Origin: Lachnospiraceae bacterium
GTDB taxonomy: Bacteria; Bacillota; Clostridia; Lachnospirales; Lachnospiraceae
Direction: 5' to 3'
Assembly: GCA_017634975.1 (NCBI GenBank)
Contig: JAGBMJ010000016.1
Coordinates: 18,436 to 82,435 of the forward strand
Length of the DNA: 64,000 nucleotides
A model generated the notes under the pieces. That model was not told the DNA's origin, did no database searches, and was given only the letters and a program-made list of their open reading frames with translations. Each line of letters starts with the position of its first letter. The first letter of the stretch is position 1. Of the stretch, positions 14,489 to 17,646 are shown piece by piece. The position numbers and the translations under genes are program-made.

Positions 14489-15439
14489 TCACAGGTAGCA
14501 GTTGACATCCTTAAGATCCAGGCGGCCGGTCTGTGCATAGGTTACGCAGCGGGCACCGCCGGCACACTTATAAAAGTATTTGCAGCTCACGCAGTCTTGC
14601 GGGAAAGAGGGTGCCGCCAGTTTCTTCATGATCTCGTTTTCTTCCAGAAATGTTTGCAGCTGTGACACTTCCCGGATATTGCCGATCACAAACGGAAGTC
14701 TTCGACACGCCATCATATCGCCGTTTGCCAGCAGAATCAGCAGCCGCTTGCCGGCACTGCATTCATATCCGCAGCCACCTTCCGGGATCCATTCCAACGC
14801 ACGGCTGTTGCTGATAAAAGGATACCTCTTAGCCAGTTTTGCCGCCGTCCGGCTCACATCCTGAAACTGCTCTGTGGTCAGATACTGCGCTGGATCATCG
14901 GTCACCACACGATCCCACCACAGTTTATCCACGTGATGACGGGCGCACACTGCGGCGACAGCCTTCATCTCCCGACAGTTCTGCTGCATTACGGTAAAGG
15001 ATACGAGCACCTTCACCCCCTGTTCTTTCAGCCGGTCAATCCCATACAGAGCCTTCGGAAAACTGCCCGTCCCGCGGATGCTCTCATGTACTTTTTCTCC
15101 TCCATCCAGACTGACCTGCACAAAGACCGGTTTCAGTTCCGCGATCGCCCGGGCCTCTTTTGCATCGATCATTGTCCCGTTGGTCAGGATCCCCAGGCGG
15201 ATTCCCCGCCTGCGGATCTCCGAGGCAATCCTGAAAAAATCCGGATGTAACAGCGGTTCGCCCCCGGTCAGATTGATCTGTCCCTCAAAGCCCTTTGCAC
15301 GGATATACTCCTCATACTTATCCAGTGTACCCACCATTTCCGGATACACCATCACACAGTGACAATCTTCCTGATAACAATGGATGCAATGCAGATTGCA
15401 TTCATGCGTGATATGCCATTGCAGGTAGTGCCGGTACAT
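14489..15439 (-). CDS. Radical SAM/SPASM domain enzyme
   Basis: 316 residues. C14-x3-C18-x2-C21 near the N-terminus (HECNLHCIHCYQ) is the radical SAM 4Fe-4S motif, followed by the LTGGEP motif that contacts S-adenosylmethionine. The C-terminal third has the SPASM Cys set: CGYEC, then CVSCKYFYKCAGGARC and a final NCY. SPASM enzymes carry auxiliary clusters and commonly modify peptides (sactionine or thioether links, epimers) or mature enzymes by formylglycine formation. The ATG lies 2 bases after the stop of a membrane protein with a Cys-rich tail, so the two are translationally coupled. Modification of that tail is the obvious hypothesis. It is the last gene of the four-gene operon. Confidence 0.9.
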   Translation of the reverse strand: MYRHYLQWHITHECNLHCIHCYQEDCHCVMVYPEMVGTLDKYEEYIRAKGFEGQINLTGGEPLLHPDFFRIASEIRRRGIRLGILTNGTMIDAKEARAIAELKPVFVQVSLDGGEKVHESIRGTGSFPKALYGIDRLKEQGVKVLVSFTVMQQNCREMKAVAAVCARHHVDKLWWDRVVTDDPAQYLTTEQFQDVSRTAAKLAKRYPFISNSRALEWIPEGGCGYECSAGKRLLILLANGDMMACRRLPFVIGNIREVSQLQTFLEENEIMKKLAAPSFPQDCVSCKYFYKCAGGARCVTYAQTGRLDLKDVNCYL

Positions 15440-15441
15440 AC

Positions 15442-16977
15442 TCAGTCTGCACCTCCGCCGCCGCAGCCGGAACAGGAGGAACAGCTGGAGCAGGAAGACC
15501 CACCCGAAGAAGATGAGGTATGTGCTGCATGATACGAATCGTATGCCCGGTTAGAACTGCTGTCCAGCATATAATAGAAATATACGGTATCATCATTCAG
15601 ATAACCTTCCCGGTTGTCATATACCACCTGACCGGTCGTCATGATCATAAATACATCATAGTGCGACATATTTCCCTGCAGCAGGCGTGTAATGGTGATC
15701 GTATCCTTTGCATATCCCGCTGCCAGGAAGCACTCCTTCCAGGCTTTTTTATATTGACCGTATTCTTTTTTGTCCAGTTTTCGTATTACAGCTTCCGTAA
15801 ATCGTTTGTTCAGCGTGATACAAAAGCTTCCGAAGGTCTCGTATTGTACCTGGATCGTTTCCAACAGTTTATTCTTGCTCAGACGCCCGTCTGCATCCAT
15901 TGCATTCTGCCACACAAAAGTACACATATCACTGTCTGCCGGACCGGTACAGCGCTCTTTTATTTCTGCAAAATGATCATTGTCGGCATCCACCACGATC
16001 ACTCCTCTGCGGATCATATCCGCAAAATAGGTACTGAAGAGTTTGGAATAATGCACAGTGCTTCCGCCATAGGCAAATTCAAAAGGATCCAGCTTTCCTG
16101 CCCATCCTGCAATAATACTCCGGATATAATTCGGATCATTGCTGACAGCCTTTTTGATACGGATCGATCTTGCGATCAGGTATATGAGTGCTCCTACCAG
16201 TACCAGCGGGAACATCAAAAATACTACGCCGATGAAGATCCACAAAAGAATATCGCTTCCGTCATCTCCGTCCGCCGGATTGTTGAGATCTTCCGCATCG
16301 ATCGATACTGCACCGGTAAACGTCACCTGGTCCATACGGATCTTTACTTTATACATACCGTTGCTGTCGGATGCCGTGATCACCGTCACATTACCGTTGT
16401 CCTGCACGCTGTCCGAACACGAAGCATAACGCAGCTCATTTACGGCACCGTCCGGTGTCTGCACCGTTACTTTTACATGATCCACTGTCTTGGAAAAATT
16501 CGCGCCGATCACGCGATAGGTAAACAGATAATAGGAATTGTCCACATACTTGACCGCATCGTAGATCCGATATCCGATCTCGTAGGTTCGGGTCACATTC
16601 TGACTGGCTTTATAGCAGTCGATCTCATACCCCATAGATGAACTATCCAGATGAAAGGTATCATCCGGGCGTCCGTTCGTATCTTCCGTTACGCTGCACT
16701 CCACGCCGTCGATCTTAACATACAGACTGCCCTGATCCAGCTCCACGGTATCCTCTTTACCGGCGTTGGTCACGATATCCTTGTAAAATCTGGTAAAGGA
16801 TCCCTCTTCAAAACGCACCGTCCAGTATTCGACCACATCCGCAGTACCGTCCTCATGGACCGTGATCGTAAACTCCGCTTCCGGTATACGGTAGCTGGAG
16901 GCCTGCGCTTTTAACGGACTGCAGACACTCACCAGTAGAAATATGGCCGCAAAAGCAAATGTCCAAAAACGTTTCAT
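15442..16977 (-). CDS. DUF2207-like membrane protein with a Cys/Gly-rich C-terminal tail
   Basis: 511 residues. A signal peptide (1-27, ending AQAS) leads into an extracytoplasmic domain (about 28-235) of the DUF2207 type. One or two membrane segments follow (about 243-270), then a cytoplasmic domain of about 215 residues. The last 25 residues are a low-complexity tail of Ser, Cys and Gly in which four Cys follow a C-x2-C-x2-C-x2-C pattern, ending in GGGGAD. The predicted topology leaves this tail in the cytoplasm. Many DUF2207 proteins end in plain Gly-rich tails; here Cys is interspersed and a radical SAM/SPASM gene follows at once. The function of the family is unknown. Confidence 0.8.
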   Translation of the reverse strand: MKRFWTFAFAAIFLLVSVCSPLKAQASSYRIPEAEFTITVHEDGTADVVEYWTVRFEEGSFTRFYKDIVTNAGKEDTVELDQGSLYVKIDGVECSVTEDTNGRPDDTFHLDSSSMGYEIDCYKASQNVTRTYEIGYRIYDAVKYVDNSYYLFTYRVIGANFSKTVDHVKVTVQTPDGAVNELRYASCSDSVQDNGNVTVITASDSNGMYKVKIRMDQVTFTGAVSIDAEDLNNPADGDDGSDILLWIFIGVVFLMFPLVLVGALIYLIARSIRIKKAVSNDPNYIRSIIAGWAGKLDPFEFAYGGSTVHYSKLFSTYFADMIRRGVIVVDADNDHFAEIKERCTGPADSDMCTFVWQNAMDADGRLSKNKLLETIQVQYETFGSFCITLNKRFTEAVIRKLDKKEYGQYKKAWKECFLAAGYAKDTITITRLLQGNMSHYDVFMIMTTGQVVYDNREGYLNDDTVYFYYMLDSSSNRAYDSYHAAHTSSSSGGSSCSSCSSCSGCGGGGAD

Positions 16978-17000
16978 AGATGTTCTCCCCCTCTTGTTCT

Positions 17001-17411
17001 CTAATATTCCCTCCGCAGGAACAGATATGCCATGATCGGTCCTTCAAGACTTACCCCAAGCATCATAACACCAAATAACAGGATCAGCTTCACCAGCTCC
17101 TCCGGTGAACGTCCGCTCTGCGCAAAGGAACGATGAAACATCGCTGCCACCAGGATCATACAGCCACCATATAACAGGATCCCGGAGATCTTCGGCACAA
17201 ATACATAACGCCCGTCTTTTTCCGTAAAGGTATAATCGTAATACCTTCCACCTCTTCTCGCGGTTCGGTACATATATACAATAACCCCTTCTTCCGTCTC
17301 CTCCACGTACGGCTCGTGTATCCGGTTCACCAGATATTGTCCCACATAAGCCATGATAAGCACTCCCAGAACCACCAAAAGCATATAAGACCATACACTA
17401 TCCTGAAACAC
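17001..17411 (-). CDS. Hypothetical membrane protein
   Basis: 136 residues that I do not recognise. A membrane segment covers about 7-27, a soluble part of about 50 residues rich in Tyr, Arg and Glu (VYMYRTARRGGRYYDYTFTE) follows, and two further membrane segments lie at about 76-95 and 105-128. It sits 23 bp upstream of the DUF2207-like gene and 19 bp downstream of the 71-residue membrane gene, all on one strand, so it is probably part of the same system. Confidence 0.65.
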   Translation of the reverse strand: MFQDSVWSYMLLVVLGVLIMAYVGQYLVNRIHEPYVEETEEGVIVYMYRTARRGGRYYDYTFTEKDGRYVFVPKISGILLYGGCMILVAAMFHRSFAQSGRSPEELVKLILLFGVMMLGVSLEGPIMAYLFLRREY

Positions 17412-17430
17412 TACTATCCCCCCTTTACCG

Positions 17431-17646
17431 TTAATACCGTATAATATAATAGATCACATATACCCAGCTCAGCAATCCATGTATGATCGCCAGCCCCACC
17501 GAATGCCAGTTGGTATAGCTGATCACCATCGCCAGTGCCACTCCGAAAGAAATGCCTGTCTTGGCCGCTGCTTTTCCACCTTCGGATCTCTTTCTGGTCA
17601 CTCTTCTGCCGTCTTCTTCAACGATCTCCACTTCTTTATATGCCAT
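17431..17646 (-). CDS. Hypothetical small membrane protein
   Basis: 71 residues, unrecognised. A charged N-terminus (KEVEIVEEDGRRVTRKRSEG) precedes one or two membrane spans (about 29-48 and 50-69). GAAGGAA precedes the ATG at 17646. It is the first gene of the operon leading to the DUF2207-like and radical SAM genes. A TATAAT-like -10 lies at 17684-17679, but its -35 is weak. Confidence 0.6.
   Translation of the reverse strand: MAYKEVEIVEEDGRRVTRKRSEGGKAAAKTGISFGVALAMVISYTNWHSVGLAIIHGLLSWVYVIYYIIRY

Follow-up and report, generated by a model that had tools for sequence, protein, structure and literature searches.

What does a radical S-adenosylmethionine (SAM) enzyme of the SPASM type do when it is encoded directly behind a membrane protein with a Cys-rich tail? 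This question is raised by positions 14489..17646 of a 64,000-nucleotide stretch of DNA (hereafter the window; assembly GCA_017634975.1, contig JAGBMJ010000016.1, positions 18,436 to 82,435 of the forward strand) from a Lachnospiraceae bacterium, whose genome assembly comprises 4.36 Mb in 147 contigs. We propose, with a probability of roughly 0.7, that the two genes form a maturation system in which the enzyme matures a tail that its membrane carrier retains. Once the carrier has entered the membrane, its C-terminal Ser/Gly/Cys tail would face the cytoplasm, where the radical SAM/SPASM enzyme, the product of the next gene, would modify Cys residues in the tail of the newly made carrier. The modified tail would then stay attached and serve the membrane protein, most likely as a metal- or redox-active site based on sulfur. 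We infer four points here, namely the action of the enzyme on the tail, the choice of Cys as its target in view of a tail made almost only of Ser, Gly and Cys, the retention of the product, and the role of the tail.

The gene pair in the window

The pair and the proposed substrate are located as follows:

14489..15439, minus strand: radical SAM/SPASM enzyme of 316 residues, with CxxxCxxC at residues 14/18/21 and the radical SAM core starting almost from the first residue
15442..16977, minus strand: membrane carrier of 511 residues, with an N-terminal signal/transmembrane (TM) segment, a DUF2207 domain (residues 30-205), a TM segment (243-261), a C-terminal region and the Cys tail
15445..15516, minus strand: Ser/Gly/Cys tail SSSSGGSSCSSCSSCSGCGGGGAD, the last 24 codons of the carrier, with four Cys arranged as CxxCxxCxxC

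The initial annotation of this DNA had described a DUF2207-like protein with a Ser/Cys/Gly tail and a radical SAM gene starting 2 bp past its stop codon, and its coordinates, strand, tail and gap were all exact. The carrier scores well over the cut-off of the DUF2207 N-terminal domain (PF09972, 62.2 versus 24.4 bits). DUF2207_C (PF20990) gave no match in the window carrier and clear matches in two related carriers, those of G153 and G123 (G and L numbers are our handles for genomes and loci), and TIGR04222 of NCBIfam did not match the window carrier either.

A CxxCxxCxxC motif in the last 40 residues occurs in the carrier alone among the 143 open reading frames (ORFs) of at least 100 codons in the window. 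The closest relative, at locus L003 in a Lachnospiraceae metagenome-assembled genome from sheep omasum, has a carrier 83-85% identical to that of the window; between the two, the 24 tail codons show 11 synonymous changes and one replacement change, and all four Cys codons are silently changed, as compared to 61 synonymous and 27 replacement changes in the 200 preceding codons. This pattern fits a substrate segment under purifying selection. The motif is unique in the window, and synonymous changes prevail in the comparison with L003, so that a chance feature of the ORF can be discounted. Furthermore, the end CS[SG]CGGGG is kept in all five DUF2207 carriers found beside such an enzyme, of which the other four are 20-85% identical to the window carrier. 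Conservation of the tail Cys among homologues, which the initial annotation had singled out as a decisive point, is thus found in our samples.

Distribution of the gene pair

In the enzyme-first survey, four of the 397 genomes of the family had an orthologue at E <=1e-40 (the window's own genome, G266, G153 and G123). L003 was found through its carrier and brings the family members to five, all of which follow a Cys-tailed DUF2207 protein; apart from L003, the loci were found by enzyme search and not by the tail. When a profile of these five was searched against 391 genomes of the class, eight genomes exceeded the threshold of E <=1e-60, namely the window's own, G153 and six new ones, and five of the six new enzymes follow a different membrane protein, with tails such as ...SGCGGCGGCGGCGGCGGCGGCGD or ...SSCSSCSSCSSCSSCSSCSSCGGCGGGD. 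One more member, likewise with a tailed carrier, was added from 64 genomes of the family of G560 (G1092). No further member was found in a phylum sample of 299 genomes or in the families of G717 (14 genomes), G507 (5) and G648 (16), and plasmid and phage collections gave no match to one clade enzyme each (E <=1e-25 and <=1e-20).

The genomes sampled hence contain 12 members of the enzyme clade. The initial annotation would have been refuted by a radical SAM gene that occurs mostly without such a partner. This is not so, as a tailed carrier with 2-8 Cys stands directly upstream in 11 of the 12 and a tailed protein 1.6 kb away in the twelfth. The directly adjacent neighbour is found in five families (f1, f21, f43, f46, f55), with differing carriers and flanking genes. 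Seen from the carriers, the gene directly downstream is a radical SAM gene in 11 of 11 cases, and the first in-frame start lies 1-11 nt past the carrier stop in all of them, with the enzyme frame open back into the carrier and the true starts unproven. Together, these comparisons support a functional pair of putative maturase and carrier.

Paralogous enzymes served as controls. On an 11-row profile, the lower-scoring paralogs (G821, G1101, a second copy in G572, G1069, G734 and G506) reach 222-286 bits, compared to 472 bits for G1092, which is absent from that profile. We applied a fixed tail test to ORFs of at least 60 codons, asking for at least two Cys and at least half Ser, Gly or Cys in the last 25 residues. 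Each of the 12 clade loci had exactly one passing ORF, in G745 the 129-residue protein, whereas the six paralog loci, spanning 4 to 13 kb apiece, had none. A direct tailed neighbour in 11/12 clade loci versus 0/6 paralog loci corresponds to a Fisher p of 0.0004. In the tree, 11 clade members split from five paralogs at 100/99 (G1092 and G1101 not included). SbtM sequences for placement in this tree were not found at E <=1e-50 in 159 genomes, and since control genomes were silent as well, their absence is not shown. The paralogs have other neighbours (labels by eye): four lie beside AgrB/AgrD-like genes, one beside a PqqD-like gene, and one is a longer radical SAM protein beside nitroreductase- and YcaO-like genes. 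At L054, L055, L056 and L057, paralogous radical SAM/SPASM genes lie beside AgrB/AgrD-like genes and a sensor kinase (by eye), and the paralogs beside AgrB/AgrD possibly belong to a radical-SAM-modified signal peptide.

The reverse survey started from the carriers. PF09972 was present in 20 of 150 family genomes with 21 matches, and after L024 (below cut-off) and L023 (end cut off) had been dropped, 19 complete DUF2207 C-termini were left. At least two Cys in the last 40 residues were found in two of these, the window and G123, and in both the enzyme follows. Among the other 17 proteins, a single one has one Cys, outside the Gly/Ser stretch, and none of the 17 genes has a radical SAM motif in its short downstream stretch (60-441 nt), so that Cys tail and enzyme are associated in this sample with a Fisher p of 0.006. 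On the scale of a sample, this is the survey of Cys-tailed DUF2207 proteins for adjacent SPASM genes that the initial annotation had suggested, and its expectation held for both tailed proteins.

Diversity of the carriers

What did not hold is the restriction of the partner to DUF2207: five directly adjacent carriers belong to this family according to Pfam or alignment and six of the 11 do not, and a DUF2207-specific pairing was therefore rejected. Among these six, TIGR04222 scores over the cut-off in two (G717, G572) and weakly in one (G560); it does not match the carriers of G648, G507 and G1092, which were recognized by eye only. TIGR04222 is rare in the class sample, with two of 291 genomes (G572 and G585), one of them over the cut-off. 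The TIGR04222 carrier of G572 lies in two overlapping ORFs (L043:5295-6336), a frameshift in the genome or the assembly.

In an all-versus-all blastp comparison of 13 neighbourhoods (the 12 clade loci and G585), the radical SAM gene is the only gene group present in all loci, the carriers form five groups, plus that of G585, none of which matches another, and no third gene is common to the loci. Moreover, when the profile of the DUF2207 carriers was compared with five other carriers, the tail alone aligned. The tail is thus the clearest common feature of very different carriers. G585 itself (L050:5407-8462) encodes a DUF2207-like membrane protein, weakly matching TIGR04222 and DUF2207, with a long (ACHS)n tail, directly followed by a different radical SAM/SPASM gene, and is by its gene order a second case of tail-enzyme pairing, parallel to the clade.

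Topology was judged from hydropathy and charge for 10 of the 11 directly adjacent carriers. Because of the charge asymmetry around its single internal TM segment (net charge -6 before and +4 after), the tail of the window carrier is predicted to be cytoplasmic. The initial annotation had made the same prediction, which is thereby supported for the window carrier. The DUF2207 carriers have acidic or neutral residues before the internal TM segment and basic ones after it, which points to a cytoplasmic tail, with the exception of G153, where a later hairpin weakly agrees with a cytoplasmic tail; in the carriers outside DUF2207 the charge pattern is less clear. The AlphaFold model of the carrier is poor (pLDDT 48) and was not used as evidence.

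The enzyme and its possible chemistry

The window enzyme matches the radical SAM family over the cut-off (PF04055, E 7e-24) and has the SPASM/auxiliary-cluster features, with a SPASM score (PF13186) of 20.5 bits just under the cut-off of 21.5; the homologue in G123 reaches 27.3 bits. The CxxxCxxC motif and seven C-terminal Cys are invariant among 11 aligned clade members. Its AlphaFold model (pLDDT 87) has SuiB, SkfB, PqqE and anSME as neighbours in the PDB, and the nearest solved structures by sequence and fold include SkfB, 5wgg, which we take to be CteB, and SuiB. This modelled kinship with SuiB, SkfB, PqqE, anSME and 5wgg does not decide the chemistry.

Among the NCBIfam models, SbtM (TIGR04082) is the top match of the window enzyme with 152.5 bits. 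The enzyme is no member of this family, as the curated cut-off is 350 bits and the match covers positions 201-502 of 516, leaving about 200 N-terminal model positions unmatched. Other models for enzymes of ribosomally synthesized and post-translationally modified peptides (RiPPs) score well under SbtM (StsB 93.5, PapB 79.7 bits). Within the clade the ranking changes: the ACGX-system model (TIGR04340) and SbtM tie for the enzymes of G153 and G572, TIGR04053 and ACGX outscore SbtM for those of G507 and G1092, and for the latter the heme b synthase model and WgkB (130.8 bits) are above SbtM (122.5 bits) as well. The clade enzymes are far below the ACGX cut-off of 400 bits, and the paralog in G821 scores 173.8 on this model, above every clade member scanned. 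An anti-phage viperin, suggested by a PADLOC pVip match of 77 bits, was rejected, as SbtM, ACGX and several other models score higher.

With regard to the product, an SbtM-like thiooxazole on Cys is a tentative candidate, thioether crosslinks are to be regarded just as tentatively, and other Cys/Ser/Gly chemistry is a little more doubtful. Aromatic cyclophane chemistry is unlikely in a tail that has hardly any residues besides Ser, Gly and Cys. The predicted mass shifts are -4 Da per Cys for a thiooxazole and -2 Da for a thioether crosslink. The initial annotation had proposed to look for 2 Da per crosslink, which survives as one option beside the -4 Da of the thiooxazole made by the best-scoring model, SbtM.

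Alternative explanations and points against the proposed tail maturation

The alternative that survives best, improbable in our view, regards the tail as a RiPP core: the carrier would be an oversized leader, and the modified tail would be cleaved off and set free, to act as a signal, a metallophore or a bacteriocin. The C-terminal position and the repeat-like Cys units indeed resemble RiPP precursors, a thiopeptide precursor model gives the carrier tail of G1092 a weak score (20.5 bits against a cut-off of 25), and a membrane protein with an HEYGH motif lies downstream in G266 and a CPBP-protease-like gene upstream in L003 (both by eye). However, the ten analysed carriers are membrane proteins of 180-615 residues with 2-8 hydrophobic TM segments (the one of 180 residues is the second of two overlapping ORFs), which does not correspond to the short precursor with leader and core of a classical RiPP and would make poor leaders. 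Furthermore, a cytoplasmic product would require export, and with no third gene recurring across the loci no peptidase or exporter recurs either, although no models for peptidases or exporters were run and such genes may be located elsewhere.

Slightly less probable still is an unmodified tail that binds a metal or a cluster through its Cys residues, while the enzyme would have its target elsewhere on the carrier or in another molecule. Metal binding by CxxC repeats is widespread among proteins, and in G153 (L030:1823-6668) the tailed DUF2207 gene and its enzyme gene are oriented divergently from those of a metal-sensing repressor and a copper-type P-ATPase. Yet such copper genes were noticed at one of the 12 loci, no enzyme was seen behind the Cys-free DUF2207 tails in the short downstream stretches, and since the carriers have little in common except the tail, another common substrate is hard to find. 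That the enzyme gene merely hitchhikes with the carrier in a few lineages, as its rarity (4/397 family genomes) might suggest, is very improbable given that the adjacent tailed neighbour is kept in five families despite differing carriers and flanking genes, and that the first starts follow so closely behind all 11 carriers.

Tail maturation on a membrane-retained carrier, which we prefer, has to face several observations that weigh against it. Modification of the tail by the enzyme is a prediction, and so are its product and the enzyme's activity. The module is rare, which keeps the counts small, and the number of tail Cys varies from 2 to 8. G745 has no tailed protein directly upstream; its tailed 129-residue ORF lies 1.6 kb upstream, ends in SSGCGSSCSGCST followed by Asn (poly-Asn) and adjoins a second radical SAM gene of 582 residues (L040:2464-7213). 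The boundary of the clade was drawn by score and by tree; the scoring profile itself includes the members, G1092 excepted, and an earlier tree with two very divergent radical SAM rows had few supported forks and was rebuilt without them. Regarding topology, the carriers of G717 and G572 have an extra hydrophobic stretch after the hairpin, and if this spans the membrane, the tail would be outside; in PMC12452194, TIGR04222 tails are predicted to be periplasmic. Finally, the G717 carrier matches TIGR04222 and, weakly, DUF2207_C (E 2e-4), and the carriers may be distant relatives rather than unrelated.

Neighbouring genes and hints to a role

Two small genes lie upstream of the pair in the window:

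17001..17411, minus strand: small membrane protein of 136 residues with a GTG start, possibly co-transcribed and not part of the core; among the loci compared it has a counterpart in L003 alone
17431..17646, minus strand: small membrane protein of 71 residues, possibly co-transcribed and not part of the core

The initial annotation let these two small membrane proteins lead the operon. Both exist as ORFs; a four-gene operon as a conserved unit was rejected, since the small genes upstream lack conservation among the compared loci. Family searches with the 71-residue protein gave no significant match, and it has no counterpart in the other loci compared. A promoter-like site is present upstream of its gene (17707-17679), and such sites are not more frequent than in shuffled sequences.

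The repressor at the G153 locus is RicR-like below the cut-off and matches PF02583 over the cut-off; a general link to copper was rejected as weak, copper genes having been noticed in G153 only. The HEYGH-motif protein of G266 (L029:6537-7007) is encoded directly downstream of the pair and has neither a Pfam or NCBIfam match nor a counterpart at the loci compared. In G123 (L031:8093-8650) a LemA-like gene (by eye; best NCBIfam match MamQ, below cut-off) precedes the carrier. LemA-like genes also precede many ordinary DUF2207 genes in the sample, and the window has the small membrane proteins at this place. Sensor-kinase genes, found at four loci, and response regulators, found at three, are common genes.

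Hints to the role of the carriers are weak. They comprise the copper neighbours in G153 and an S. mutans mutant in a DUF2207 protein, which may or may not have a Cys tail; this mutant shows sensitivity to low pH and to methyl viologen and peroxide (PMC10457818).

Comparison with known systems

For the most part, the radical SAM enzymes known to modify peptides do so on free precursors. The sacti-/ranthipeptide and other RiPP maturases (SkfB, 5wgg, SuiB, StsB, PapB, WgkB), which have the fold and auxiliary-cluster architecture in common with the window enzyme, act on such free short precursors. The ACGX-system enzyme, whose model scores about as SbtM does with G153 and G572 and better than SbtM with G507 and G1092, reportedly targets a Cys-repeat peptide. 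anSME has the highest query TM-score among the matches listed (0.81) and is a radical SAM/SPASM enzyme that modifies a Cys or Ser within a large protein, which remains whole; its CxPxR-type target motif is, however, absent from the carrier tails. SbtM resembles the window enzyme as its top-scoring model and as an enzyme acting on peptide Cys. It differs in that its substrates are precursor peptides with Cys or selenocysteine, and it is not the best model for the enzymes of G507 or G1092. According to the review PMC11002830, SbtM is a thio(seleno)oxazole-forming radical SAM/SPASM enzyme, and the thiooxazole is formed with loss of four hydrogens.

The closest parallel is the pairing of TIGR04222 membrane proteins, which have Gly/Ser/Cys tails, with MNIO (DUF692) enzymes, proposed in 2025 (PMC12452194). 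It likewise involves a multi-TM protein that has an unstructured Ser/Gly tail with interspersed Cys and is encoded next to a metalloenzyme proposed to modify Cys. In G717 and G572 (over the cut-off), and perhaps in G560 (weak), the carrier itself belongs to TIGR04222. The two systems differ in that the enzyme here is a radical SAM/SPASM protein and there an MNIO, and in that the TIGR04222 proteins of PMC12452194 are mostly from Actinomycetota; in that paper, 'radical SAM' appears in the reference list only and 'DUF2207' nowhere. In open-licence texts we found no description of a DUF2207 and radical SAM pairing, a prior description being possible, and PMC12452194 came closest. The different arrangement foreseen by the initial annotation, in which a large membrane protein keeps the tail, is well supported as an arrangement and, given this precedent, not wholly new.

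A wider view, possible and clearly more speculative than the maturation system itself, is a portable tethered tail: one radical SAM/SPASM clade would install thiooxazole-type or other sulfur ligands on the Ser/Gly/Cys tails of very different membrane proteins, paralleling what is proposed for MNIO enzymes and similar tails in other bacteria. If so, the same membrane-bound metal or redox site would arise via two unrelated maturases. A clade devoted to membrane-retained tails would furthermore add a new substrate class, suggest what the Cys-bearing members of DUF2207 and TIGR04222 are for, and open to test the idea that radical SAM chemistry takes the place of MNIO enzymes in some bacteria. The proposed MNIO pairing is a precedent for Cys-tailed membrane proteins with a modifying metalloenzyme at their side; the radical SAM/SPASM version appears to be new.

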